Below are positions 20,866 through 57,770 of a stretch of DNA of 64,000 bases, one piece after another. Made by a program: the position numbers and the translations under genes. Origin of the DNA: Lepraria neglecta (lineage: Eukaryota > Ascomycota > Lecanoromycetes > Lecanorales > Stereocaulaceae); the NCBI GenBank assembly GCA_033220425.1, contig CM065651.1, positions 3,100,001 to 3,164,000 of the forward strand, read 5' to 3'. Positions within the stretch are counted from its first letter, which is position 1. Each line of letters opens with the position of its first letter. The notes under the pieces are model-generated. The model searched no databases. It saw only the letters and a program-made list of their open reading frames with translations, and was not told where the DNA came from.

Positions 20866-21604
20866 GAAATCGTCTTTGGGTGGAACAAATCACTACTCTG
20901 AAGACCTAGCAAGCTGGTGTCTTCATCGGTGGAGGTGAGGGAAGGGGCGAAGGATGTCTGGTGGCGTAGACAGGGCGGGGGCTACGTCTTGGCTTGCTAT
21001 TGGCAAGCATACAAGTATGGAAGGCCTTGGACTTGCATGGTTGGACGGCTTGGAGTTTGAACACCGAGCTGAGGAAGGACTGCTATTCCAGATACCCAAT
21101 TCGGCTCATTTTACGGCTCGCGTAAGAACGCTCAGTTCTCTGGGCTTTGTATGCATCATTAGCGATTTGTAATTAGAACAAGGAAAGCACAAACACATTC
21201 ATCTACATTCAATATTGCCGGAGTCTTTCAGATCGTAAATGCAAATAAAGTGATTTGGTAGTCTAGCTGCTTCGGGAAAAATCCTTGGCAAAGGGAGTCG
21301 TACCTTCCCCGAGCTTTGTTTTCAGTTTGTTTTCCCTTACTTCACTTCATAGGACTGAGAGATTCACCGTGTAGCGGTCTACTGACGTGTCTAATGTCCA
21401 CATCCTTTCTCATTCCATCTGTCAATGACCACTTACTTTAATTACACGGGCATTATCTAAGATCAGTAGCCACTATTTGAGATACGTTCCAGCTAGAAAG
21501 TCAGCCAGAGAGGGATGTTATCTCTCAATAACTTCATTTGAAGAAAATCCAATCTATATTTCTTCATCTTACTCTACTCGTTGAAGTCTACTTCCTCAGC
21601 CAAA
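20866..21604. other. intergenic, upstream of the chromodomain gene
   Basis: About 740 bases of spacer. The 3' part (21300-21600) is pyrimidine-rich on the plus strand, as common in fungal promoters and leaders. No gene or repeat supported. Confidence 0.45.
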
Positions 21605-24600
21605 ATGGCTAATACCCACGACATCGGCGAGTCCGGATCCAGCGATGACGACTCAATATCCCTTGCATCAACTGTGGCCAGCACTCACGCGGAAGACGAT
21701 ATCTACGAAATCGAGACCATCGTAGCTGAAGAAACTATCGATCAAGTCACATGGTATCTCGTCAAGTGGAAAGGGTATTCCGAGGACCGCAATACTTGGG
21801 AGCCCAAGGAGCAATTTAACTCGGACGAGATCTTTAAAGAATGGAATGAACGTCAGACGCGTATTTCGAGAGGCCGGGAGAAGCCTTTTGACGTTGAAGC
21901 CTGGCTTGAACGGCAAGTCCAGCTTGAGCAGGATGCTGAGAAACGGAAGTGGAGGCGTCAGAGGAGGAGGCGGAGGAGGAGAAGGCTGAATTTAGATCCA
22001 GATGCCCGACCGTCGAACTCTAAAGATAACGATCAAGCATCACCAGATAAGGAAATCAGCAGTTCTCTCCATCAGTACTCATCATCAAGCGCTTCGACTA
22101 GCAGTCCACCTACGGCACAGGCTGCTCAAAGACCAACAGCCTCATGGACCAATGAGGAGAAAAGCATGCTCGAGAAAGGCCTTAAAGAAGCGCGAAGGCC
22201 TAAGTTCAACGAGATACTCGGATGGTATGGTAATCGGGGTACGATAAACCGCGTCTTGAAGGGCAAAACCCCAAGAGACCTACGCCAAAAGACGGAAGAG
22301 CTCCGGCAAGAGTTCGTCATTGTAGGGAAAGAGCCGCCGGATTATTACCTTGATACGCTTCCTCAACCCCTAAGAAGAGCGAAGGCTAGGGATAGTAGCC
22401 GCCATAGTGACCGTATCTCCGGGGAAGAGGCCTCCAGCGATAGTGAGAGAAAGATCGACTCAATGTTGGAGGAGATCAAAGAGAAGGCCCTCAAGAAGAG
22501 ATCAACCTCTAAGCCGAAGGCTACTCCGAAGAAGATGACGATGACGCCCGCACTTCCTAAGGAAGCCAGGAAGGAGACTTCACCCCCGAAGAAGCCTGAT
22601 ATCACCAGTAAGGAGCCAGGTGCAAGCACTTCTCGTCCCGACGCGCCGAACAAGAGCAAAGCTCCTCCCAAGAACCCTATTACAGAAGCAAGGATCAACA
22701 GCCCTGAGAAGCCAACACGAGATCCTGTGCGAACAGACACGTCTGATCGCAGGGCAATTGAGCCCGCGAAACAAGCGAATCCCCCGGCTCAGGGCCAGAG
22801 AGCACCAAATACTGCTCGGATGGGCGCCATAGGAAGCGGGCCTGCACGCCTACCTTCGGCCAAAACAGTTGCGAATCCCGCTGAGAAAACCCGAAAGCCT
22901 GGTGTCGGCGGGATTGATCCCGGGATTAGTTGGAAAACAGAGCCTAAGCGGAGGAAGACTTTGCCAACCGCAAACACAGAGGAGCCCGGAACCCGGTTCA
23001 CGAAGCTCTCGATCCAAAACACGGTGATGAAGTCAAGACGCAATGAGCCAGCGCCCAACCGGGATAATCTGATTTTTCTGGATCCGAAAACCGGTAAAAC
23101 ACTAAAACCAGAGTCCAAAACCAGCGCTGTAGTAGAAAGAACGAAGACACCGTTTCAAGAATTCCAAGAGAAACTTGATGCTGAGAAGGCTAAAGACCGG
23201 CGGATCAAGGAGTCTCAAGGGGAAAGAACCGATGGTGATGCCATGCTTGTGGATGAAAACCGTCAAAACAGGGATAATCGTGGGCCAGGAATTGATAGCG
23301 ATGCCATTCTTGTAGATAACAACCGTCAAACTAGGAAGTCTCAAAGGACCGGAATTGGAAAACTTGCTGATGAGAAGGCTAAAGACCGCCAGACCAAGGA
23401 CTCTCAAGGGGCAGGAATTTATGGTGATACCACCCTCATGGATGAACCTGAGGAACCTGTTGCTTCAATCAAGGGTCCTAAATCGAGTGAAGCTGACAAG
23501 TCTTCACGAGCTTCCCAAAATATGGAACCCAAATTAGGGCCATCACCGCCGCCGGTCACAGTGAAGTTTCGTCAACCTCCTAAGGCTCACACGTTCTCGG
23601 ATCCAGCCCCTGAACTTCCACTGGATGCGCCAACGGCCCCAAAGAAAAGCACGGAGAGATCAGCCAAGTTGCCCTTACAAGGCTACGTTGAGCGCTCGAC
23701 GCTGTCTACTTCTAGTACCACCGCTAAGTCAAATCCCTCACTTGCACCATACGACACTGCATTCGCCCTGATGAACAATCCTTCGATAGAGCAAAGACAC
23801 GTGTTGGCGTCATTGTGGGACCAGAACTGTATCATAGGAGATCTGCGGCTTGGAGCAGTTGGAAGCCAAGGCGTGGAGAAAATCAATGTGAAGTTCCTGG
23901 GTCTTAACTTCGAGATGCACAGATTGCTCTTGACTATCAAGATCGAGCCTAGGACGATGTATTTTGACTTCACGAAGTCATGTCGGGCTAGCGAATGCCA
24001 GAATTACTTCCTCACGGTCAGTACAGAGCAGCGGTTGCGTCCCCTGCTTGCTGTGTTCCAAGGGTATGCTGACCTAGACTATATATCAGGATCCCTCTAA
24101 GTACCTTGGCTCGGGGTTTATCGTCCCCTATTCATACACTGAATATGCTACCGAACGACTAGCAGAGAATCTAGCGATGACTCTGTCCTGTGGCCTTTTC
24201 TTGGCCCGAAACTTCACTATGATCATGTATCCGGCTGGGGCCAGTGCTTGGGGTTTTCTGGATAGGAATTTGCCAGCAGTACCCGAAGGCACTCTCTTGA
24301 GATTTATCATTCGTCAACCTCTAGCAGAGCAACTGGCCGGTGAAGACTTGATCATTGATCGGCTTGCAACCCAGAATTCTGACCGCCTGGCTGAGATCAG
24401 GACCCACGTCAGAGATAACCCAATCCAAGCCGATGAGAAGAGCATCAATGTGGTGTTCCGTGATATGTTTGAGATTGAGTACGACCGTCTTGTTGCACAG
24501 AATGGCCAGCAGAGGTACTCCGCAGCAGGTACGTACATTTTGGGGCGCAAGATGTGTTTTGGAATTAATCATGGGGATCTTCCCCCTTTTCCTTACAAGT

Positions 24601-36142: not shown

Positions 36143-39100
36143 TCATCGCCTCTCCTCATACCCACGACCCAATCCCCGTCCCTGAACACCATGTTCATCT
36201 CCACCCCCACCACTGTAATATTGCCCACCAAGCTGCGCTCTCCTGTCCCGTTCTTCCATCTCCCTCCGCTCCGTACGTTCCCTTATCGCAGCCTGCTCCT
36301 GCCTCATGACCTGTTCCTGATATCTTTCCAGTTCTTGTCTCCGCCTAGCCTCCTCTTGTTCCCTCTGCATGTGATGTTGTGCCTGCTGCTGCATTTCTAT
36401 TTGGCGTGCCTGGCGCTGCTGCTGCTCGAGCGCTTGTTGCATATGCATATGCTGGTGGTGTTGCTGCTGCTGCTGCTGCTGTTGCTGTTGATGCTGGTGG
36501 GATTGTTCACGTGGGTTGAGGGATGCGTAGGGAGAGGGGCGGATGTTTGGTTCTGCAGGCCCAGATGGCTGCTGCTGATGGTGATGAGGTTGTGACTGCT
36601 GATGTTGAGTGTACGAACCGGTTCTGGAGTGTGAGAACGGAGGAGGGCTGGGTACATGGCTTCGTTGTTGTAGAGCATGCATGGAATTTCTCGACGAGGG
36701 AGGTATGAACGAGGGTTGAGGTGGAGGCGAGACAACGGACTGCGCTTGCGCACTACGCTCTTCCATCCAAGAACGCTGGGGCATTTGCTGAACAGCTGCT
36801 GGCCAATTTCGGCCGAGCTCTCGAGCAGGTGTCACCTGCTGCTGCTGGTGACTCTGCTGAGAGAAAGAAGGTCGCTGCTGCTGTTGCATTTGCAGGGTTG
36901 GCTCACTTGGCGTTTCACGTCTCTGGATCTGTTGTTGAATTGGCTGGGCGGCGGGCTGGTAGGCAGACTGCTGAGGAGGTGGTGTAGGAGCAGCAGGACG
37001 TTGATCACTTAGCCTCTTCCTGGGCGCTAGCTCAGGGGCATCACTGTTCAGGAGGTCCATGATGCTCGATTTCTTCGGTGGGCCAGGTGGAGGCGGAGGT
37101 TGAGCGGACGCGCTCACAGGCACAGAACTCGGTCGCAACATCTCACCCTGAGGCGACATGGGTGGCAGACTCGCACTTGCAGGCGATTGGCTTGGGGTGA
37201 ATTGATTGGGAGCATTACTGAACGCGCCAGAACCTATGCGGCGCATTGCAGAGGAAGTGTCGAGTGGCTGGCGCTGCTGTAGTTGCTGCAATGGGGTTTG
37301 CTGCATAGCTTGCTGCTGTTGCATGGCTCGTTGTTGTGCTTCCTGTTGCTGCTGTTGTGCTTGCTGTTGTTGAGCCTGCTGCTGCTCCCGGAGTTGCTGT
37401 TGCTCGAAATGAAGCCGAGCCTTCTCATCCCATTTGACTTCGATAGGCGTAGTACTAGCCTGTGTGGTTGAAGTAGGCTGTTGACCTAGTAGCGACGAAT
37501 GTAAGGCATTCGGCATGAGACTTGGCGCATGCTGCTGCTGGTAAGACTGAACTGGTTGCTCATTCTGCTGCTGCGAAACGCTATGCCGGTGATGCGCGTG
37601 GCTACCGCGCTCTTGTTGCCGCTGGAGGAGCTCTCTATCCTGTTGGGCGTCGTGCGATTGCTGCCGAACCTGCATCTCTCGCTGTTCCTTTTCTTTGACT
37701 GTATCTCTCGTCGAAAAGACAGCTCGAGACCGGTCCTCAGGAGTAAAGGTACCCAAATGCGGACCAATGACTTGCTGTTGAAGTTGCTTCTGCAATGAGA
37801 TTGTGATGCGGTTCTTTGTTGTTTCGTATCCCTGTAACATCATCTGCGCAGATACCTGAGCCGCTCCTTGGTCGGCTGACGCCAAGGTAGTAAACTGTGG
37901 ACGATGATGATCACCCTTGTACCGCCCTTGGGGTTGCGACTTTGTCGGCTGGAGCTTTGGCGACACGGCATCAATCTCAATGACGTCTCCACTCGGTGCC
38001 AAGGGTCTCTGGGATTCTCTCGGGAGATTATGGAAGTGGCGCCGTTTTTCGCCGGTCTGCGTTGGTGGTGGCAGTGGGCCAGTGTCCTGACCGTTCGCTA
38101 TCATTTCCTCGGCTCGCAGAGCGTTGAGCTCCATCTGCTTGCCATTGTCCGTTTTCTTCAAAGTCTCTCGGTTGTAGTAGTTTTTGATCTAATGAGGTAG
38201 TCAGCAAACTTGTGTTCGTGTTCAAGGTTGCAAACTACAAACCATGGTGTGCGTCTTGGTTTTCATAGTTGCAGCAATGGCTTGCCAATTGGTCCCAAAA
38301 TGGCTGAGGTAATTTTTGAGATCCTCTATTTCAGGCACAGACCAGTAGCTCGACGTAGTAGGCTGACCGCCAGCCTTTGTCTGAGGCGAATGCGACTGAT
38401 CTTGAAGGAACTGCTGTGAATGCTTTTGCATTGGATCGATGTTCATCGCCGATGGTTGCTCAGGCGTCCAACCCTCGATGGAGCCTGACCTGTATACGGA
38501 CACATTGTAGAGTTGGTTGCCATTGAGCCCAGCCAGCGCTTGCGCCCCTTCGATATCTTCAAGACGTTGCTCATTCTCCAGCTGTGGTTCCCTGCTTAAT
38601 CCTCGTACATCCTCAAGAAGACCTTTCTGGGGAGAAGGACCAGGAGCTGCCGCCAACAATGGCGCCTTCCCCTTTCTGCCGCCCTTTTCCTTCGCAGGAG
38701 CCGTCCTTGTTCGCTTGTTGGCAGGCTTCTCAGTGCTTGTATTGCCATTCAGATTCTCTTTGCCAGCGGCGCCGCGTCGTGCTGGTGTCACAGCTGGGGC
38801 GGGCTCAGGTTCAACAGTATCTCCAAAGGTTGGTGCTGCAGCACGTCTGGGCCTTCCTTTCTCTGTAAGAGCTACAGTCTGGGTGTTGTAGTCCATCATC
38901 CCATCAAACGAAGAAATCAAGCCCGTTGACCTGGGTCGGATCTGGCCGCGCATCGACGCAGCGATCTTCTTGCCTTTCCTAGTCTTCATGAAAGCTATCT
39001 CTTGATCCTTGTACTTCACCAAAAGCTTAGTAGAATAGTAATGCTGAACACAATCCCGGAAATCCCGGCCGTGTAATGCATCCGCAATAACTCCAAACCT

Positions 39101-42100
39101 TTTGGGATACAGGAGGTAATTGTATAAGAAGGTTTCATGCTCTTCGGGAGTAAAGTCGTCCTTTTTGGGTATAAATTCAAGAGCTTGCAGCCCAAATTCT
39201 CGATCAACCAAAGTATTCATATCGGTGAACAAGGATGCGTCTTTCTCCTCTCGGCTGAGCATATTAGGAACCTCGGCTTCTCTCTCAGGATTGAATGTTT
39301 CTGCAGATTCGTAGACCGGCTGTTCTCGCTCGCGTCTGGCTCGTTCCTCTTTCGCTGCCGTCTCCTGGGACACTCGTATCACCTCTTGCATGTCTAGCTC
39401 GCTAATGATCTTCCCTCGTCTGCCCACCACTGGCGGAGTCGGTGTCACTAAGGGCACGTCGTCTGGTGTAACCGAAACTCCTATAGCATCCTCTGCTCTT
39501 CGGGAGTCCTCAAAGGCTTCGACATTCTCTCGCCAGAGCTTATAAAGCCTCTCGAAAGTGTCTCTCGCTTCATAATTCTCGGCTTCTTGGGTCTCACGCT
39601 GTCTTGTAAGCCTCTCTAGGAGAAGAGCCTCGATCGCATCCTGTCTTTGAGAATCCTCCTGTAGTTCGTCAATCTGCGAAAACGGTGTCGGTGGTCCGGA
39701 GGTTAAGAATGGAAGATTTTCGAGGAGGGGTGTCTGCGGGCGCGCCTTGACCGAAAGGGAGGGACTGCCAGATTCTCGTTTGAAGTCCATCTCATCTTCC
39801 TCCTCTGGTTTTGGTGATGGTAAGCCTAAAGGTACAGGCTGGGCTGCCGGAGGCTCCTCTGACCCTGCCATCTTGGTCTTCTCCTCGAGAGCGCTGGCTA
39901 AGGCATCAAGTTCTTCCAATAACTCCAGAATGACCGGATTGTTTCGCGGAGTGAGAGGTCTCTTTGCTTCAAGGGCCTGCATTTCATGATTGAACTTCTT
40001 TTCAGCTTCGGCGAAATCTTCCTCATCCAAATCCATCTGACCTTCTCCGGCACCAGCTTCATCGGACTCGTCCTCCTCCTTCTCCTGATCTGGAACCATT
40101 GTCCTGGGCTTAAATTCTCCAGCACCAGGCTCTTCGACTTTGATATCATCACCAGTGAATGCTTTCTGCCGCGTCTCCGGCGATAAATTGGAGGAGCTTG
40201 TGTTTTGGATATTTTCTGCTTCAGATCGAGCTGATGTGCCCCCAGACGGTGCGTTGTTGCGACGCCATTTCTCAATCGCAGACTCGGCAGACTCAGTACT
40301 CGGTGGACCAGCCCTCACTCTCTCTTCACCAATGGAGTCTCTCCTCGTAGGCATTGTGTTCATTATAGACGGCCCGCGTGGAGGATTTCGAGATGGGTTC
40401 ACCCAAGACCAAGTGGCGCCCCCGCGTCCTCCTCGTGCAGGCATCATGGACGGTCCTCTATTCGGAAGCCCACGCACAGTGGGAGGAGCTGGTTGTCTGA
40501 TTGAGGGTGGACCACGCTCTGCACGAGGCCCAGTCGGAATCTTGACAGGTGAGCCTTGGTTAGACATATCACCCGAAGGATGCCTAAGATGTGAGGCTGA
40601 GCCTGCTGTGGAAGGAGCATTGCCATTGCGACCTTGTTCTTCGACTGCCTTTCTGACCGATGGCTGTGTGGATTCGAAAGAGCCCGGAGTTGACGGTATC
40701 AACGATCGAAGAGGCGAGGTCTCGCCCTGCGAGAAGCGTTTCGAGATGTTGCGGACTTGTTCGAAGCCAGCTTCTTTCGCAGCAGGGTTTGGAGGTGCAG
40801 CAAACGATTGACGCTGGAACCCGAACCGATCCACATCATTATCAAGCACACGCCTGGTAGTGTCTTGAGTCTCATCGGGTTGCCATCTCCCTAAAGCTTG
40901 CTGTGCTTTAGGTCCAGTAGGTGCACTGTTGAGAATGTGGGACTTCGGCGCTGACGGTGCATCGATCGAGGGATCTAATAGCTTGAGTCTGGACGGATGA
41001 ATCAATGGAGATGTGTCTCGTCGAGGTTCTTCTTTTAGTGGAGGCCCTTGGATAGTTGTCGATGCTCTTTGAGGAGGTATTGACCCGAAAGCTGGGACTG
41101 GAGGAGCTTGCGGAGGTGGCGATGCCGTTCGTGATTCGAATCGATCGTTATCTGCGCGTTTAGGATAGACATCTCCTCTTTCTGAGTCTCTATCACCGCT
41201 GCCTATCCTTATATCAGGATTGGAGCCCTGCAGCCTTGGTCTCTGGTCCAACGACTCTCGAGCATCACGGGTGTTCTGGGTGTAGCGGTCTAAATTAGCT
41301 AGGTGCACTGAAGTCGTGGACGTTGAGCGAGAAGTAATAGGTGTAGATGGCGCGCCTGTAGAGTTCCTAGAGGCTGGACGGAAGGGTGGTGGCTCTCTTC
41401 TGAATCGATCCTCCCGCTCATCTCGCTCTCTTCTTGGTTCTTCATCTCGCCTGCTGTCGAAATTACGATCGTGATCTCTGTCATCGCGCATTTGTTGCTC
41501 CCAATCTCGGTCACGAGAACGACTTCTGGGCCTAAGATTGTCCCGATCATCGGGAAATCTGCCTCTCCAATCCCCTCTGCCTCTACCTCGGAAAGCCCCT
41601 CGACCACGAAAAGGGAATGGATCTGGTGGCCCTGAGAGGGAACCCTCCCTAAAGTCTCTCCTAGGTTCATCCCTTGGCGGTAACTCCCTCAGATCTCTCG
41701 TATCTCTGAAATCTCTTGAAAGTGGTGATCTAGATCGATCACGGCCTGCAGGTGAAGCTCTCCTATCTCGAGTACCAAATCGGTCTCTAGGGCCCCAATC
41801 TTGGCCACGTCCACGCCTGGGAAATGGCTCATCTCTTATATCACGAAAGTCCCGATCCCTAGCATCCCCACGGCCTGGGAATCCCCCTCTGCCCCTTGGT
41901 ATGAATCCCCCTCTTGGTGCATCTAGCAAAGCCTTTGGACCTCTAGGCGGCTCTCTCGGAGGTTCGCGACCTCGACCCTGGTATCCATAGCCGTCATTTG
42001 GTCGATAGCCTGGCTCATTTGGTCTCGGATCCAGGCCCCCGTCGCTGAATTGTGCTGATGTACGTCTGTCAAGTTGTCTTGGCGGTGAACGATCTCGCGG

Positions 42101-42145
42101 GTAGCGAGGATCGCTGTTGTTTGTAGGTGGAAAGCGTGAAGACAT
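36143..42145 (-). CDS. snt1: Snt1/N-CoR-like SANT-domain co-repressor (Set3 complex subunit)
   Basis: Predicted 1982 residues in two exons (42145-38243 and 38188-36143; 54-nt intron with GTTTGT donor and TTGCTGAC branch). The first ~270 residues are Arg/Asp/Gly-rich and disordered with RG boxes (GGFIPRGRGGFPGRG). SANT 1 is at about 985-1040 (DFTPEEHETFLYNYLLYPKR, then RDFRDCVQHYYSTK), the deacetylase-interacting type. SANT 2 is at about 1267-1312 (YWSVPEIEDLKNYLSHFGTN, then NYYNRE) and is split by the intron. Two spaced SANT domains plus the MNTLVDREFG block match the Snt1/SMRT/N-CoR scaffold. In yeast Snt1 sits in the Set3 histone-deacetylase complex with Hos2, Hst1 and Sif2. The C-terminal third is glutamine-rich with several Q runs (longest at 36461-36490) and ends GRGYEERR. 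Repression of transcription in the nucleus is inferred from the family. Confidence 0.9.
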
Positions 42146-44291: not shown

Positions 44292-45728
44292 TCATCCCCC
44301 GTAGTCCCACTCCCACTCCCCTTCCCCACAATCTCCACAGACGGATTCTTCCCCATAATAATCCCCCCCCTTCTCCTCCCCCATCGCAATGCCCTCAATC
44401 TCTTTCCCCCTAAGCGGGCCCTTAACATACGCACTCGTCCCCTCCCCAAACACATACGCCTCCTCCCCATGACACGCATAATCCCCGACCAACAAATCCT
44501 CATCACTCATCCTCAACGGAACACGACACACATACTTAATAAAACACATTATCAGACTCGTCCAAACGACATTCCAGCCGACTACGAAGCAAACCCCAGC
44601 GATCTGATAGGCAACTTGGATACCATTTCCCTCGATAGCGCCGCCGGGGTTTGTGATCCCGAAGGCAGCGCAGCCAGAGATGGTTGCGAAGATGCCAGTG
44701 GCGCAGCCGCCGACGATGCCGGCTACGAAATGGGTGTGGAAGACGCCGAGGACATCGTCGACGGAGCGCATGAATGCAACTTTCTTGCCGAAAATGTTCA
44801 TGCTTGCCCAAGGCACGGTTCCAGATCCAAAACCTAGCGCGATGGCGCTCCAGCCGGCAATGACGCCTGCAGCGGGGGTGATGGCTACGAGACCGCAGAT
44901 CATGCCGTTGACGGCACCGATGACGGAGGGTTTGCCATAGTAGAGGACGTCGCAGAGGGTCCAGGAGAGCATGCTCATTGCTGTGCAGATATTTGTGTTG
45001 AGGACGGCGACGCCTGCGTCGGCGCTTGCTGCGTATGGATCTCCTCCGTTGAAACCGTTCCAGCCGATCCAGAGGATACCTGCGCCAACGAGCACGGAGC
45101 CGATGTTGTTAGGGCGGTTGTCTTCGCGGTCAGCGTCGATGCGGGGCCCGAGCCACCATGCGGCCACGAAGCCGGCGGTGCCGGAGGAAAGATGGATAAC
45201 GTAGCCGCCAGAGTAGTCGATGACGCCTAAGACGGCGAGGAAGCCGCCGCCCCAGATGGAGTAGGCGCTGATGCAATAGGAAAAGGTGAGCCAGAGCGGG
45301 ACGAAGAGGATCCAAGCGAGGAAATTCATGCGGCCGAGAAGGGCGCCCGCTAGGATGACAAGAGTGATGGCTGCGAAGACGAATTGGAAGTATACCATTG
45401 TTGACATGGGGAAATTCGCACTTATGCCGGAAGTGGGGAGGAGGGCTTGAGTGAGTTCGTATTCCATTGATAAGGCAGGGCCTGGTATGCCCGCGAATGG
45501 GAGCATGTGTTTTCCGAAGGCGACTTTGTAGCCCCAAATCACCCAGCAGATGAGGACGGATGCGAAGGCGTAGAAAGCCATGAAGGCCGAATTAATAGCC
45601 CACTTGCTCTTGACGATACCAGCGTAGAGGATCATGAGTCCTGGTATAGATTGCAACCCGACGAGGGTAGCCGCGGTCATCTGCCAGGCATTGTCGCCGG
45701 TGTCGAGCCATGGTGGATTGGTCGCCAT
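44292..45728 (-). CDS. mep: ammonium permease (Mep/Amt family)
   Basis: Intact single-exon gene of 478 residues. It has 11 membrane segments and all Amt hallmarks: NAWQMTAATLVGLQSIPGLM at the outside N-terminus, YAGIVKSKWAINSA, the DYSGGYVIHLSSGTAGFVAA signature, GILWIGWNGFNGG, the pore histidine in FHTHFVAGIVGG, and LRMSDEDLLVGDYACHGEEA in the cytosolic tail. The tail is the regulatory region in Mep/Amt trimers and here ends in a glycine/glutamate-rich stretch (EGEWEWDYGG). The protein imports ammonium at the plasma membrane. Fungal mep genes respond to nitrogen through GATA factors (AreA-type); the upstream region contains GATAAG at 46308-46313 and TTATC at 45946-45950, which fits but is weak evidence alone. 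Confidence 0.97.
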   Translation of the reverse strand: MATNPPWLDTGDNAWQMTAATLVGLQSIPGLMILYAGIVKSKWAINSAFMAFYAFASVLICWVIWGYKVAFGKHMLPFAGIPGPALSMEYELTQALLPTSGISANFPMSTMVYFQFVFAAITLVILAGALLGRMNFLAWILFVPLWLTFSYCISAYSIWGGGFLAVLGVIDYSGGYVIHLSSGTAGFVAAWWLGPRIDADREDNRPNNIGSVLVGAGILWIGWNGFNGGDPYAASADAGVAVLNTNICTAMSMLSWTLCDVLYYGKPSVIGAVNGMICGLVAITPAAGVIAGWSAIALGFGSGTVPWASMNIFGKKVAFMRSVDDVLGVFHTHFVAGIVGGCATGIFATISGCAAFGITNPGGAIEGNGIQVAYQIAGVCFVVGWNVVWTSLIMCFIKYVCRVPLRMSDEDLLVGDYACHGEEAYVFGEGTSAYVKGPLRGKEIEGIAMGEEKGGDYYGEESVCGDCGEGEWEWDYGG

Positions 45729-48945: not shown

Positions 48946-50090
48946 ATGGCAGACTCAACCACAAACGGTGTGCCCAACGGCCAAGCTCCAACCCGCTCCA
49001 CAGACGCTGTCCTGAAACCCTCCGACCCAGTCCCAGAAGGTGTCCATAAAGTCAGCGGCATAGAGTTCAACGATTACAAAGACCGAGACATCACCGCTAG
49101 CGAACTAGTGGCCAATATGACAAACATGGGCTTCCAGGCTAGCGCCGTCGCTGATGCTGCCCGCATCATTAACAATATGAGAGACTATCGCGACCCAGAG
49201 GAAGGTACAAAAACCACAATCTTCCTGGGCTACACCTCTAACCTCGTCTCCTCGGGTCTTCGGTCCATACTCCGCTACTTGGTCGAAAATAAACATGTTT
49301 CTGCCATCGTGACTACAGCCGGCGGCGTCGAGGAAGATCTCATTAAATGCCTCGGAGACACTTACATGTGCTCTTTCTCAGCTATAGGCGCAGAGCTAAG
49401 AGAGAAAGGTATGAATCGTATTGGCAACCTCGTGGTGCCGAACAGCAATTACTGCGCCTTTCAGGACTGGGTGATTCCGATCTTTGATGCTATGCTCGAA
49501 GAGCAGGAAGCTAGCAGGAACGATGAAGAGCCTCTTGTCTGGACTCCCAGCAAAGTCATCGCCAGACTTGGCAGGGAAATTAACAACGAAAGTTCCATCT
49601 GCTACTGGGCCTACAAGAACAATATCCCAATCTTCTCACCAGCCCTCACAGACGGCAGTATTGGTGATATGCTCTATTTTCATACCTGGAAGACCGACCC
49701 TAAAGTCCTGACCGTCGACATCACGCGCGATATTCGGCGCATCAATGACATTGCTATGAAAGCTCAGAGGTCAGGCATGATCATTCTTGGCGGCGGGCTC
49801 ATTAAGCACCACATTGCTAATGCAAATTTGATGCGCAATGGGGCTGAGCATGCTGTTTACATCAATACAGCACAGGAGTTTGATGGTAGTGATGCGGGTG
49901 CGAGACCAGACGAGGCTGTCAGTTGGGGGAAGATTGCTGCTGATGGCGAGTCGGTAAAGGTGGGTCACCATTAGAACATGGTACTTTAGACAAGAGCTGA
50001 TGACAGTAGGTCTATGCCGAAGCTACAGTGGTGTTTCCACTCATCGTGGCAGCTACGTTTGCGAAGGCCAGTCAGAAAGGCGAAGATTGA
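48946..50090 (+). CDS. dys1: deoxyhypusine synthase
   Basis: Predicted 364 residues in two exons (48946-49959 and 50010-50090). The enzyme transfers the aminobutyl group of spermidine to one lysine of translation factor eIF5A, using NAD, in the cytosol. Family blocks are clear: [110 protein letters not shown] and the active-site lysine in SWGKI (residue 329). The C-terminal exon gives [19 protein letters not shown], the last conserved helix, so the 50-nt intron is well supported. The N-terminal ~30 residues are poorly conserved. Confidence 0.97.
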
Positions 50091-50209
50091 GTTGGTCACT
50101 TCGACCTGAATGGTGTACGCCATCCATGCCCAGTTACACCAACATGCCTTCTGGTAAAGACCAGCTACCAAATTTTGATGTTCACTCTCCAAACATCTGG
50201 TCGCCATCG

Positions 50210-50560
50210 AGACCATCCTCTTTTGAGGTTTCCGATCTTCCAGCTTTCACTCTCTTCCGCTCAATGCCGCACCGAGACTTCTTTGACACCTTTCGGCCCT
50301 CCATAGCCGTTACCAGCCGTGGAAAGATCGCCACTATCCCGTCTTGAGGTTTCTGGGCTTCCGTCTTTGAGTGTCCTCCGGCCAGACCGGATATGGTTGA
50401 CTATTCTGTATTGAGGTTTTCAAATTTCCGAATTTGAGCATCTTCCAGACAAGCCGAGCACTAAGTCCTCTCCAACGGCTACTATCCTGCTTTGAAGTTT
50501 GAGGATCTCCAAGTTTGAGCGTCCTCCGGTGCTGCCGGACGGATGCTAGACATGAGAGTG
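50210..50560. repeat. degenerate tandem repeat downstream of deoxyhypusine synthase
   Basis: Four or so decayed copies begin near 50219, 50339, 50408 and 50490. Each has (C/T)TTGAGGTTT or TTGAAGTTT, then 8-10 bases, then CTTCC/ATCTCCA, then TTTGAG(T/C)GT(C)CTCCGG in the better copies. The period drifts between about 70 and 120 bases. It lies in the spacer between two convergent genes. Confidence 0.5.
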
Positions 50561-50849: not shown

Positions 50850-53800
50850 TTACGTCCTCCAAATCCTCACCACAGCCCTAACATTCCTCCTACAAACCGG
50901 ACACTGATCCACCTGCCTCGCACACTCCTCACAAGCAACCACATGCCCACAATCGTAAAACAGCGCATCCATCTCTCCCTCATAGCAAATCTTGCACAAA
51001 TGCGTCTCCTCGTCCGCAACCTCAAACACCATATACCCCTTCCCATGTCTCTTCCTCTTCTTGAACCCCCCTGTATACACGTTGCCAGTCTTCGCGTAGA
51101 CCATTTGCCCTTGCCCGTTGGGTTCGTTGGCTTTCCATTCGCCAGTGTAGGTGTCTCCGTTCGCGTAGGCCATGGTGCCTTGGCCTGACTTGTCACCGGC
51201 GGTGAAGTTGCCGGTGTACGCGTCGCCGGCTAAGGTAATGAGGGTGCCATCACCGTGAGGCCGGCCCATGGAGAGGGAGCGGGAATTGTAAGGGTGGCCG
51301 AAGTAGGAGCTTGTGACGTGGGTTTGGAAGTAGGTGGGGTTGTCGTGGCCGTGGAGGTATTGGAAATAGTCGATAGGGTTGGTGCACTTGCCCTCGGCTT
51401 CGAGAACGGCGACCCTAGAGATTTTAATTAGCGAAGTGCTCTCATTACCTCTAACTGAAGCTTACTGTGCAGCAGTTGGATGACGCTGAGCAATAATGAT
51501 ATTGCCGTCAGCGCCATCAAACTCGGTCTCGAAGGTCGCGTTTTGTTTCACCTGATCTTTGGGCCGGATCTCGAGACCTCGCTCATGGAAGAGGTCCCAC
51601 GACTCCTGGGCGTCAACTTTGAGTAGCTTCTTTACCTCTTCTACAATCTTGGCTTCGCTCTTGGCCAGATGTCCACATACTCCACGCAAGCTTTGGCTTT
51701 CAGTGTCAAAGACCTTGAGGAGGAAATAAGTCTTCTTGACAGGCGCAGGCTCGGAGCTTTGAGCTTCACTTCGTTGCTGCAGCAGTAAACGGGCATGGGC
51801 CTGCGCAGCGGCGAGTGCTTCTTCCATGCCTGGCGCATCAACGTTCTGGGCATTCTGTCGGGTTGCTTCTGTGGCTTCAGCCATCTCAGTGTCATCTCCG
51901 CTAGTCACCGCTTGGGACACTTGATCTATCGCAGCCTCGGAAGCTCTTATGGCAGACATCAGCGCAGATCTTCGGGCCGCTTCTTCATCAACCTGGGCAA
52001 AATCCTCCTCGGTAAGGAGTCGAGCAGTTGGTGTCGCAGTGGCTACAACAGGATCGGCTTCCCCAGGGATCAGCCAAAATCGAGAGCCTCCAGTGCGGTG
52101 GACTAGCTCTTCTAGTGACTCAGATTTGTGAGTTTCAAATGACAAGAGCTCTGGATACGTTTTCCTGCTAGGAGCTAATGTATTCATAGGCCACAACCTG
52201 ATGTTTTGGCCAAGTCCTTCAACTTCGACCAGGGCTTTCCTGAGTTCGTCAAGCGTGGTCTTGGGAGCAAATTTGAATTCTTTCACCCATTCCGCACCGT
52301 TCTGCTTCGCCCATGGATCACAGAGTCCTCGGCCTGTATAATCCTGGAAGAGCTCTGAGGAATAGATGCACACTGGCATACGTTCCATCATAGTTTCTTC
52401 AGTGTCTTTGCTCTCTAACGGACCATCCGCCTCTGACGCCGACGGGACTTGAACTTCGTCGGTACTCATCTTGGGTCCTCTCCGATGCTTGAAAGGAGTA
52501 CAGAGTACACTTGAGAGCAGGTCCTTCCGAACATACATTGCAATATATGCAACGGCTGCAGTCCCGTCTGCACTATCACCAGATCCTTCATGAGCTTGCA
52601 CTGCTTTCATCGTTGTCAAGATCTCGACTTTCCGAGGGCTGTTGTCACCGCCATACTTCACCCATCTTGTTCCAGGTCCCTCTGGTCGTATGACGGAGTA
52701 GTACTCCTTGGACTCCAAATCCCCTGAATGGACAATCATGCCATAGAGAGAGTACTCATGGGAATTGAAAATGATGTTCTCGTTCAGCTCAATTCTATGG
52801 GTAAGCTTCTTCCACTTTCTTACATTTGAAAAATAGCTTTGGCGATGGAGTTCGATCTGAAGAACAGGAGGACTTTCAACATGAATTTGGCTCTCGCCAG
52901 CAAAACTCCTCCATAATCGAAAGGCCCTCGAGAGCTCCAGGCCGGCCAAGTCGATCGTTTTCTGAACGCTGTTGGGCTCGGAATCGTAAATCTCCAACTG
53001 ATTATGACGGGGTGATGGCTGATATTTGACGCTCAAATTATCGTGATTGAATGGGTCAGGTTGCTTGAGAAGAAGGACATCGTTGAGCTCATTGTTATTC
53101 GGAGAGTTGCATTCGGCTACGGTATTGAGACCGGATGCTTCATAGTTGAGTATGCGCCGCAAAGTCTCCCAGATCATCACAACGTCCATCTTAGAATCAA
53201 CACCCGCACCATAGAAGTTCAGGATATTAAGGAAGTTGCTTAAGTAGAGCTCATGCTCTTCTGTCGAGGAGATGTGTTCATCTGCATCCACAATGTCTTG
53301 TAGCTCCTCAAACGCTGGTCTCTGCCGTAGTTTGGCTTCCCATACTGGATCTGGGATTTGCATGTTCCGGATGAGATCGACGACGGGTGACAAGTGTAGC
53401 CAGGAAGACAAGGCGGCAATCATGGCACTTGAATAATGACATTCGAAAGCCCGAACGCCAGTCATAGCCAGACAGTCCCATTCGGATTTATCCTTCGGAG
53501 GATGCCACCACAGGGCCTTAGTATCATCCTTTATCGTGCGGATATATGCAGTAAACGCAAGGGTATCGTTGCGGAGAAGTGCTTGTCGTTGGTATCGCTG
53601 GCGCTTGTGTATTTCGTCCCAAGGACCATGGAATCGGGTCCAACCCCAATCTGGGTTGTCATTGTAGTAACGATGGCAACCTTTCTGGCTGGCATTTACT
53701 CGGGGTTCGTCAGGATTGTAGATGACACAGCTTATTTGAGCGGCAATGCCCCACGGCTCTTCCTCTTTATGTTTGCTCTCCTTAGGTGGTGTTGGTGTCG

Positions 53801-55199
53801 CTTCCATGTCCTCCTCTGGTGCACTAGGCGCATCATTGACGCTGATTGACGAAGCAGGCTCGTCGGCCGCAGGTGGAGGTGGAGGTGGAGGTGGGTTGCT
53901 CGTTTCACCCTGCTCTGCGTCTGCTACAACACTGGGCCCTTGATCGGCATTCGAAACTTCTTTAGGGACTTCAGCCTTCTTTGCCGCAGCCTCGAGCTCC
54001 TCCCAGGGAGTAGGCGAGCACTCAATGTAGATACTCAATTGCTCAGTACCGTCGTTTCCATGCGGATAATATTTGATGTTCCAGTAGTATCCATCAATGA
54101 ACTCAGACGGGGACCTCATAATCTTTTCCCTGTTTGGCTTCTCCGGAGTTCCATGTACCCCAGTCACAGTCCAGGTAATACGATGGCCCTCGCTAGGGAC
54201 GTACTCAGGGTCATCAAGCGCTTCGAAAGCCTTCTTTTCCCAATATTCATGATCTAAAGCACTGACCTCTTCCACATTCTCCTCGATGATCTTAAGCTCA
54301 CGTTCGTCGGGTGCCGATGTATCTTCCTTGAGGTTTGCCCAGAAGGGGTGCTCTTCTTCATCCTCGGACTCGTCGCTATCATCGTCATCCCTCTCACCCT
54401 CGTCTTCTGCATGACGCTCCTCACGTCCCTCACGCCTCCTCTCTTGCCTCGCCCTGTCAGCCCTACGCATATCTCCTAGAGCTGCTAGCTCTCTCTCAGC
54501 AGCTCGTAGTCTTGCTTCTCGTTCCTCAGGTGTATTTGCTTGTCCTGCTGTATTGACAGCTTCCACAACTTGGACAGCGTCCACGTCGCTGGTCGGCATC
54601 TGCACATGTACAAGGCGGAGAGCAGTTGATTCTCCGGTGGCTTCGTTTGTGAGGATGTCTATACTGGTCTGCGGAGGTGTAGGAGGCCGTTCGTCAGTGG
54701 CAGGATTATCTGGAGATGTGTCCATTACTTCATCGTCTATTGGAGGTGGTGCGTTCTCATGTATCGGGGGTGATATATTGCCCGGGGCAATAGGGCCTCC
54801 CTCTGATGATCCAGCCTCTGGCGTATCTGCCTCTGGACCTGACTCCGAGTCCTCATCCTCTTCGTCTGTTTCCATTCTATCATGGTCTTGTCCCTCGACT
54901 TGTGGTGCCGGTGGTGGGCTGCTGGGGTGGTTAGCCCCACTGGGTGAAGCAATGATGGTTGGAGGAGGAGGCGGTGAGGCACTCATGTTTCGAGGACTTC
55001 GATGGGCGTTGGGAGGTGGCGGTGACCTCGAGTGTTGACTGCTCATGGCTGCTTCGAGGATGAAGTGAGGTGGAGGCGGTGTTGAGGCTTCGGGCGTAGC
55101 GTAACGAAGGTGTCGTCGTTGCTGGTGGTTGGGATTCTGGGGAGGTTGACCAAGCGGAGGTAGGTCGTCATCAGTACCACTCATGGTTGCCTCTTCCAT
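50850..55199 (-). CDS. MATH + USP-like + USP7-tail-like + MORN + RING protein
   Basis: Predicted 1432 residues in two exons (55199-51466 and 51414-50850; 51-nt intron). The start MEEATMSGTDDDLPP is the first ATG of the frame. Residues 1-330 are Pro/acidic and disordered. About 335-570 is MATH-like (RITWTVTGVHGTPEKP, DGYYWNIKYYPHGND, QLSIYIEC), split by a proline-rich insert. About 580-880 resembles a ubiquitin-specific protease: a Cys-box relic (GVRAFECHYSSAMIAAL) and the late strand pair (YSLYGMIVHSGD, EYYSVIRP). The usual GHY histidine is replaced (KEYYS), so it is probably not an active protease. About 1150-1245 resembles the USP7 C-terminal region (YFLLKVFDTESQSLRGV, GNIIIAQR). MORN repeats (YTGNFTAGDKSGQGTMAY, YTGEWKANEPNGQGQMVY) and a C3HC4 RING (CKICYEGEMD, CGHVVAC, CPVCRR) end it. 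The RING predicts an E3 ubiquitin ligase. Confidence 0.85.
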
Positions 55200-55664: not shown

Positions 55665-57770
55665 CTATTTCACTCTCGTAGTAGCTGCTTTCACAATTGG
55701 TGCTGAGCCCGCTGATAAATTTGCCTTGGAAACTTTGACCCCATTTGACTGAGCAGCATCTTCAGACTTCTTTTGGCCATTCGCAGGCCTCTTCCCGTTC
55801 ACTGCCCTAGGATTTATGCCCTTCCTCCTCATCCTATTCCTCTTTGCCTTTTCGATATACTTCTCATCCTCCGACTCATCGAAGCCGCCAAAAGCACCCG
55901 TTTCCTCTTCCTCATCCTCCGTAGCAATCGGTGTCCGGTCCACCATCACCACATCTTCACGATTCCTTGCCCCATTTGAGTCTCCATCCTTCACTATTGC
56001 TCCTGGTGAAGGAGCGACCTTCTTGAACTTGCTAACGAAAAAGCCATCGACGTTGTAAGCTTGCGGATAGAACCTCTTCGTCATCTTCATCTTTGGATCA
56101 AATTGCTTGCCCATGTAGCTCACGAATCCGTCCACACCAAATGTCAGGCCAGTATCGACAAGTTTGACATTAGGCCGCTTGGTGAGTGCGTATTGCACCA
56201 CCTGCTCGTTCTCCTCGACAGTGACGCTGCACGTTGAGTAGACAATATACCCTCCTGTCTTGCTCGTGTGATCTACCGAGTCGATGGCACAAAGTAGGAG
56301 CTGCTTCTGTAAGTGAGGTAGTTGCATGAAATCTTTCTCCATCTTGTTCGTCTTGACACTAGGATCTTTAGCTATCACCCCTGTACCAGAGCATGGGGCA
56401 TCCAGCAGTACGCGGTCAAAGCCGCCAATCACTCTCGGGAATTCTTTAGCGTCGTAGTTGCACACGATAGTATTTTTGACACCGAGTCGGTGAATGTTGC
56501 CTATCAGACCCTTCGCTCTGGACTTGTTGCTATCATTCGCAAATATGGAACCAGTGTTCTTCATCAGGGCAGCGATGTGGGTAGTCTTTCCGCCAGGAGC
56601 GGCGGCCATATCCAGTATTCGCTCTTGTTCTTGAGGCGCGAGGGCCATGACGGGAAGAAAGGAGGAGGCAGCTTGCAGAATATAATGGCCAGCAAGGTAC
56701 TCAGGCGTAGCTCCCAGAGGCACTTGACTCTCGAAGACCTGGAGGCCGACCTTTGACCATTTACCCACTGGCTCGATTGTCACGCCTCGGTTGATGAGTG
56801 ACTGTGCTAGTTCTCGACGATGAGTGCGGAGGGTATTTGTACGGATGACAACAGGACGGGCGGACTCGTTGGCTTCGAAAAACGCAAAGGCTTCTCGGGG
56901 CGGGAACAAGTTGAAGAGCTTTTCGGCGAGGTAGGGGGAGTAGTCGTAGTATAGGCATATGTCTTTGAGTAGTTGGGCTGTGTATTCTGCTCTTGATCGA
57001 CCTTCTTCGGCTAGTTTGGAGAAATCATCCAGGACACGGATGGTATCTGTGATCCGGGACCGTAGCAGTTGTAGGTCAGGTGCCAATCTTGAAGCTGCAC
57101 CTTCATCTTCGTCCTCATCTTCCAGCACCTTCGGTCTATCACCATCGATGTTCGTTTGTAGTGCTGCTTCTTCCAGCTCCAACTGTGCCTCAGCTGCATC
57201 CTCCTCTTGTTCCAGGTCCAATTTCCTTGACAATCCCGCAATATTTGCAGCAGTCAATTTCTCCTCAGCATCAGACTCATCTTCATCCTCAGAAAACCGT
57301 GCTCTTTCTTGTTGTGGGTCTGAATCGTATACTGAAGAACCAGATTCCAGAAATTCGTCTTGCGCATCTATGGCATCCTCGTCAACGCTACCTTCTGAGC
57401 CATCCAGTACACCTAATGGGAGCTCCTCGTCCTCGTCATCCTCTCCGCCTAGCAAATCTGCAGCATCATCGTCCGAGCTTTCATCTAGCAGTGCGCCTGA
57501 CATTATAGGTTCTTTCGCCAAGTTCCTCCCCTTCTGCGCCTGTGTAGGTTTGCCATTGGCGAAACTCCCTTTCGTAGACTTCTTGAGGCCTGAGTTCGAA
57601 GTGCCATTGGAGCCTTTCTTGAGTGGCGCTTGCGGCTTGATCTCGCCAGATGCTTTCCGCTTCTTCCCTCTTTTCGAGTCGTCGAATTCAGAAGCATTTC
57701 TCTTATTCGCTGATATCTTCCCAAGATCCGGAGGCGGGCCCTGCTTCTTCATGCGCCGGCCAACACCCAT
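55665..57770 (-). CDS. nop2: Nop2, nucleolar 25S rRNA (cytosine-C5) methyltransferase
   Basis: Intact single-exon gene of 701 residues; the ATG at 57770 gives MGVGRRMKKQGPPPDLG. The first ~230 residues are lysine-rich then very acidic (SSDDDAADLLGGEDDEDEE), typical of nucleolar proteins. The RsmB/Nop2 methyltransferase core follows: NTLRTHRRELAQSLINRG, the SAM-binding ILDMAAAPGGKTTHIAALM, LLDAPCSGTG with the motif IV Pro-Cys, and YSTCSVTVEENEQVV with the catalytic TC cysteine of motif VI. It ends with RFYPQAYNVDGFFVSKFKKV. The enzyme makes m5C in 25S rRNA and is essential for 60S ribosome assembly. The C-terminus is lysine-rich. Confidence 0.96.
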   Translation of the reverse strand: MGVGRRMKKQGPPPDLGKISANKRNASEFDDSKRGKKRKASGEIKPQAPLKKGSNGTSNSGLKKSTKGSFANGKPTQAQKGRNLAKEPIMSGALLDESSDDDAADLLGGEDDEDEELPLGVLDGSEGSVDEDAIDAQDEFLESGSSVYDSDPQQERARFSEDEDESDAEEKLTAANIAGLSRKLDLEQEEDAAEAQLELEEAALQTNIDGDRPKVLEDEDEDEGAASRLAPDLQLLRSRITDTIRVLDDFSKLAEEGRSRAEYTAQLLKDICLYYDYSPYLAEKLFNLFPPREAFAFFEANESARPVVIRTNTLRTHRRELAQSLINRGVTIEPVGKWSKVGLQVFESQVPLGATPEYLAGHYILQAASSFLPVMALAPQEQERILDMAAAPGGKTTHIAALMKNTGSIFANDSNKSRAKGLIGNIHRLGVKNTIVCNYDAKEFPRVIGGFDRVLLDAPCSGTGVIAKDPSVKTNKMEKDFMQLPHLQKQLLLCAIDSVDHTSKTGGYIVYSTCSVTVEENEQVVQYALTKRPNVKLVDTGLTFGVDGFVSYMGKQFDPKMKMTKRFYPQAYNVDGFFVSKFKKVAPSPGAIVKDGDSNGARNREDVVMVDRTPIATEDEEEETGAFGGFDESEDEKYIEKAKRNRMRRKGINPRAVNGKRPANGQKKSEDAAQSNGVKVSKANLSAGSAPIVKAATTRVK

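Follow-up and report, generated by a model that had tools for sequence, protein, structure and literature searches.

Can a deubiquitinase be turned into a ubiquitin ligase while it keeps the parts with which it holds its substrates? This question is raised by a gene of the ascomycete Lepraria neglecta, which lies in a window of 64,000 nucleotides (assembly GCA_033220425.1, contig CM065651.1, positions 3,100,001 to 3,164,000; coordinates below are those of the window unless a contig is named) and encodes a protein of 1432 residues. From the N- to the C-terminus, a low-complexity N-terminus is followed by a MATH domain with a proline-rich insert, the remnant of a USP fold, a region corresponding to Ubl1 and Ubl2 of USP7, MORN repeats and a C3HC4 RING. 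As judged from the sequence, it is fairly probable that this is a duplicated fungal deubiquitinase of the USP7/Ubp15 type which is catalytically dead and has been converted into a single-chain RING E3 ligase. A change from removing to attaching ubiquitin is suggested because the active site is lost and a RING stands at the former place of the activating tail.

The spliced protein was scanned with Pfam, and matches were counted against the family cut-offs. MATH_2 (PF22486, 39.9 bits, residues 341-399), UCH (PF00443, 37.1 bits, residues 774-852), USP7_ICP0_bdg (39.4 bits), MORN (28.0 bits) and zf-C3HC4_3 (PF13920, 48.6 bits, residues 1382-1425) are all above cut-off. An earlier note, made from the letters of this DNA alone, had proposed the order MATH, USP, USP7 tail, MORN and RING together with a USP7/Ubp15 ancestry, and had named MATH, UCH/USP and USP7 ICP0-binding models as the profiles to search with. 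All three families were matched and all members of the order are recognised by Pfam, but the USP fold is found only in its second half (residues 776-905), the UCH match covering profile positions 145-233 of 254 only, and residues 556-775 match nothing. The ancestry proposed in that note agrees with what follows, as do the loss of the catalytic His and the completeness of the RING.

The searches in the own genome covered 42.0 Mb in 11 contigs. The USP7_ICP0_bdg family has two matching stretches there, one being the window gene (39.5 bits) and the other a gene on the minus strand of contig 2 (3215049-3211336; 281.5 bits), which was assembled from eight exons and encodes 1106 residues. As this second protein has a MATH domain, a full UCH (206 bits), a full USP7_ICP0_bdg (278 bits) and a USP7_C2 domain (166 bits), it is an intact representative of the USP7/Ubp15 type and is called the canonical protein in the following. 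Blastp aligns three pieces of the window protein with it (residues 481-593, 767-1005 and 1160-1265; best E 3e-13, with 25% identity in the top piece). Among PDB sequences, exon 1 has 27 matches at E<=0.1, namely 26 to USP7 and one to FAF-X, and residues 776-1054 match USP7 chains in phmmer (E 1.7e-10). The window gene is thus, by its alignments, a distant relative of the intact USP7/Ubp15-type gene of the same genome, and with a MATH domain, a USP fold (second half only) and an ICP0-binding Ubl region in one chain it belongs to that family by descent. Other searches add little to this. The exon-1 protein found only itself in the genome, and as the canonical relative was also missed, this search excludes close copies only. 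UCH has 21 matching stretches, some being parts of one gene. The MATH_2 search found only the window gene, below cut-off, and missed the canonical copy, the MATH domain of which is split by introns, so that MATH genes cannot be counted from it, and the MORN search (E<=0.001) is uninformative because it had no match at all, not even to the window gene. In viral contigs, no relative of exon 2 was found, and exon 1 had two pattern matches, neither of which was confirmed as a relative.

Although recognisable only in its second half, the USP fold is well supported there. None of 500 shuffles of residues 776-905 reaches the score against the canonical protein, and the high hhalign value (table) was obtained with a single-sequence query against ten USP sequences of the own genome, the canonical one included. 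In the alignment with the canonical protein, the catalytic His505 is replaced by Glu832 and Asp522 by Gly850, and hence two of the three residues of the Cys-His-Asp triad are lost, the Asp in addition to the His. In human USP7 this triad is C223/H464/D481 (PMC6335408). Cys587 stands opposite the canonical catalytic Cys261 in MAFFT and blastp alignments, where the alignment leans on the adjoining MATH domain, and the Asn-Gln that should precede it is absent.

Homology to USP7 ends early in Ubl3; from there on, MORN repeats and the RING take the place of all that follows in USP7, the activating tail included. USP7_C2, present in the canonical protein, has no Pfam match in the window protein, residues 1276-1432 align with the canonical tail at chance level (161 of 500 shuffles are as good), and the Ubl45 unit with the activating tail is therefore absent. 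In USP7, Ubl45 and the C-terminal tail activate the enzyme and are needed for full activity (PMC6335408). The new part begins with tandem MORN units, the best PDB relatives of which are MORN1 structures (E 3.2e-35). MORN repeats serve as spacers or as dimer or membrane contacts, and the MORN1 structures are dimers. A basic run, KKRKR (residues 1363-1367, positions 51048-51062), lies within the third repeat and may act as a nuclear signal or in contacts to lipids or nucleic acids. The RING has all eight zinc ligands in C3HC4 order and, with BIRC2, BIRC3, XIAP and MYLIP as its best PDB relatives, is a C-terminal RING of the IAP/MYLIP type. The alignment to BIRC2 and BIRC3 reaches their tail aromatic residue (here Trp1430), and as in these two proteins an Arg (Arg1420) follows the last Cys; we take these residues to have roles in dimer and ubiquitin contacts and as linchpin.

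In the conversion into a ligase, a USP7/Ubp15 duplicate would have lost its peptidase centre, with His changed to Glu, Asp to Gly, and the Asn-Gln before the Cys gone. Behind Ubl2, MORN repeats and a RING of the IAP/MYLIP type would have been taken up in exchange for the greater part of Ubl3, for Ubl4-5 and for the activating tail. For the resulting protein we infer E2 binding, ligase activity, dimerisation and a choice of clients: the MATH groove would grip a client peptide, the USP remnant would be a scaffold, the MORN repeats would provide a spacer or a dimer or membrane contact, and the RING, probably dimeric, would take ubiquitin from a loaded E2 and transfer it to the client or to its own chain. 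Both halves of the MATH domain are significant despite the insert of 78 residues, PF00917 (residues 476-552) reaching 17.5 bits in exon 1 (cut-off 21.2) and 23.7 bits when residues 336-556 are scanned alone, and D164/W165, which lie in the MATH pocket in human USP7, are kept as D517/W518. A role of both residues in the MATH pocket of USP7 has been described (PMC7419626), and for W165 also in PMC4624675.

Several points weigh against such a conversion. In the Ubl2 pocket, the human sequence 758-DELMDGD-764 corresponds to SEIQDGD in the canonical and to FDGADGN in the window protein. D762 is kept (D1231) and E759 is conservatively replaced by D1228, but D764 is changed to N1233 and D758 to F1227, leaving one exact residue of the four (D758/E759/D762/D764). 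E759, D762 and D764 belong to this pocket, and E759A, D762A and D764A each abolished binding of the ICP0 peptide (PMC4457826); D758 is named in a legend of PMC7419626. Of the client grip through MATH and tail that the earlier note had proposed, the MATH pocket has kept its Asp-Trp, but the Ubl2 pocket is mostly changed. Former USP7 clients may thus be shared in part: those of the MATH type could be, those of the Ubl2 type are less likely to be. A further such point is the front half of the USP domain. When residues 556-775 are aligned with the canonical protein, as good a score is reached by 435 of 500 shuffles, neither Pfam nor PDB sequences give a match at E<=10, and the hhalign probability is 0.2%. 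The thumb and fingers of the canonical protein are about as long as this stretch; a front half that is a proven USP was rejected as unproven, all four tests being negative. The reduced Cys box noted before is seen in the missing Asn-Gln and the alignable Cys587, but the box cannot be demonstrated as that of a USP by sequence. The structure prediction that had been advised in the same note was run without an alignment and is uninformative on the fold, with a mean pLDDT (predicted local distance difference test) of about 38 (38.5 for residues 336-910 and 38.4 for exon 2), too poor for a fold comparison. Finally, a Cys can still be aligned at the catalytic place, and PAN2/USP52 has been reported to cleave ubiquitin without a standard triad (PMC10919355).

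Among the alternatives, a regulatory scaffold survives best, although we consider it rather unlikely. The dead USP7 copy would in this case not be mainly a ligase for clients but would hold USP7 clients or E3 partners and control USP7 pathways, and the RING would serve dimerisation or self-turnover. The match of the MORN repeats to the dimeric MORN1 structures would suit a scaffold as well, but the RING keeps its eight zinc ligands and, like IAP ligases, an Arg behind the last Cys and an aromatic tail. Descriptions of pseudo-deubiquitinases in the role of scaffold or allosteric partner (PMC10919355) also speak for this alternative.

The second alternative, that there are two genes, concerns the gene model. 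The open frame on the minus strand runs from 55265, with the ATG at 55199 used as the start, to a TAA ending at 51462. Without splicing, exon 1 ends in this stop, and an open reading frame of 139 residues begins at the ATG at 51269, as would be expected if a MATH-pseudo-USP gene were followed by a small MORN-RING gene. Against this, the homology to USP7 runs about 20 residues past the junction, upstream of this ATG, and between the two parts lies an intron with a good donor, a branch-like site and an acceptor. When GT and GC donors were scanned in 51560..51401, 34 joins were listed that stay in frame as far as the stop behind the RING, and the strongest donor among them, by eye, is the GTAAGC of the 51-nucleotide intron. 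With this intron removed, the USP7 alignment continues over the junction, the USP7_ICP0_bdg profile rises from 28.3 bits (residues 1128-1241, exon 1 alone) to 39.4 bits (residues 1128-1266), and the own-genome match of this family passes through the intron, meeting one TAA. Residues 1246-1276 alone align to the canonical USP7 tail with a score that 11 of 500 shuffles equal. As the Pfam match spans the splice junction, the RING part belongs to the same gene, and as the MORN/RING exon begins within USP7 homology, it is hardly a separate one. Codon scores, trained on two neighbouring genes, are 0.085 for exon 2 in frame and negative in its other five frames. The segment 51413-51270 is open in frame and scores 0.126, but one reverse-strand frame of it also scores 0.102, so that this point is weak if taken alone. 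The evidence supports one gene, as the earlier note had proposed, and two genes are improbable. The spliced translation of 1432 residues also confirms the coordinates, the frame and the 51-nucleotide intron of the earlier note. No intron interrupts the assembled canonical gene at the corresponding place, and the intron is therefore not common to both. Its length is divisible by three, and a TAA is formed at the donor itself, so that retention of the intron would end the protein at the junction and yield a form without MORN repeats and RING.

Similarly improbable is an editing enzyme in which a deubiquitinase, still active by means of a rearranged centre (for instance with Cys587 and other residues), is fused to a ligase. 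Cys587 does stand opposite the catalytic Cys in both alignments, and USP52 is a reported precedent (PMC10919355), but His and Asp are gone, the Asn-Gln is absent, the front half is unrecognisable, and the activating Ubl45 and tail are lacking. A decaying gene copy without function, to which the strong divergence and the lost triad could point, is the least probable of all, as the whole frame is open, the RING ligands and the MATH pocket are intact, and the intron can be spliced.

A dead USP7-type enzyme that has become a RING ligase would resemble several known systems in parts. With USP7/HAUSP (yeast Ubp15) it shares MATH, the second half of the USP fold, Ubl1 and Ubl2 in the same order and the Asp-Trp of the MATH pocket. 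Unlike USP7, it lacks the triad His and Asp, a recognisable front half, most of Ubl3 and USP7_C2 with the activating tail, and it has the proline-rich insert, MORN repeats and a RING. Like BIRC2, BIRC3, XIAP and MYLIP, it carries a C3HC4 RING at the C-terminus and shares with BIRC2 and BIRC3 the tail aromatic residue and the Arg that follows the last Cys, but no BIR or FERM domain was found in it, and its substrate-binding part is derived from USP7. A20/TNFAIP3 also has a deubiquitinase-type fold and a ligase module in one chain, but the fold is OTU and not USP, the module consists of zinc fingers and not of a RING, and both activities have been reported. We know of no RING in PAN2/USP52 or USP39. 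A label 'MATH and UCH domain protein' is presumably in use in Aspergillus and other fungal databases, where unstudied orthologues have probably been deposited; no open-access literature was found on 'MATH and UCH domain'. The pseudo-USPs PAN2/USP52 and USP39/Sad1 are alike in having a USP fold without the standard triad inside a larger protein, and differ in that PAN2 has a nuclease and USP39 a zinc finger; some pseudo-USPs were later reported active (PMC10919355). Chains that join other ubiquitin functions are known as well (PMC13061254), and a table of deubiquitinases of M. oryzae lists one UBP15 (PMC9599802). A USP7-type pseudoenzyme joined to a RING in one chain was not found described among the open-access matches listed.

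The features of the gene are collected in the table. Its neighbours are a deoxyhypusine synthase gene (48946-49974, plus strand) and a gene of an RsmB/F-type rRNA methyltransferase (55665-57770, minus strand), which we take to be Nop2-like. The 3' flank, which separates the gene from that of deoxyhypusine synthase, contains a direct repeat of 54 nucleotides in four diverged copies (50206-50528), three of them 61-72% identical to the reference copy; Tandem Repeats Finder reported no repeat there. Elsewhere in the window there are open reading frames of 839 residues with a chromodomain (21581-24097, plus strand), of 1307 residues with a Myb domain (38225-42145, minus strand) and of 478 residues for an ammonium transporter (44295-45728, minus strand), and three of 672, 755 and 330 residues had no Pfam match at 1e-5.

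Table. Features of the gene in window coordinates; shuffles are counted as those reaching the score against the canonical protein.
Feature	Position	Strand	Basis
Whole coding region, ATG to stop; two exons, 1432 residues, single terminal stop	50850..55199	minus	spliced translation and Pfam
Exon 1; 1244 codons and 2 nucleotides: N-terminal tail, MATH, USP remnant, Ubl1, most of Ubl2	51466..55199	minus	
Intron, GT-AG, 51 nucleotides	51415..51465	minus	GTAAGC donor, CTAATT branch-like site, CTCTAG acceptor
Exon 2; end of USP7 tail homology, MORN repeats, RING, stop	50850..51414	minus	
MATH domain, first part, residues 335-399	54003..54197	minus	PF22486; 0/500 shuffles
Pro/Ala/Glu-rich insert within MATH, residues 400-477 (78)	53769..54002	minus	
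MATH domain, second part, residues 478-555, pocket Asp517-Trp518	53535..53768	minus	PF00917; 0/500 shuffles
Positional counterpart of USP thumb and fingers, residues 556-775, with Cys587	52875..53534	minus	not recognisable as USP
USP fold, second half, residues 776-905, E832 for catalytic His, G850 for Asp	52485..52874	minus	PF00443, 40.6 bits when scanned alone; hhalign 95.6%
USP7 Ubl1-like region, residues 940-1054	52038..52382	minus	phmmer; 0/500 shuffles for residues 930-1060
USP7 ICP0-binding region (Ubl2 and start of Ubl3), residues 1128-1266, interrupted by the intron	51351..51818	minus	PF12436; blastp, residues 1160-1265
MORN repeats, residues 1295-1378, three clear YxGxF/W units at 1311, 1334 and 1358	51015..51266	minus	PF02493; PDB MORN1 match
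C3HC4 RING, ligands C1385, C1388, C1400, H1402, C1406, C1409, C1416, C1419	50892..50996	minus	PF13920
C-terminal tail past the RING, Trp1430 aligned with the BIRC2/BIRC3 tail Phe	50853..50891	minus	alignment

As a tentative extension, the two proteins of L. neglecta may form a matched pair for the same clients, in which the intact USP7 removes ubiquitin and the paralogue, recognising the same MATH motifs, adds it; the exchange of the activating tail for a RING would have reversed the polarity, and retention of the intron could be a switch to a RING-less decoy. RING ligases, MDM2 and ICP0 among them, are known to work together with USP7 (PMC7419626, PMC4457826); here the RING is built into the USP7-derived chain itself. 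If the conversion is true, a ubiquitin eraser has become a writer by replacement of its activating part and has kept its substrate grip, the choice between deubiquitinase and ligase for common clients would be testable with two paralogues in one genome, and the protein would be a natural counterpart to man-made degrader fusions.

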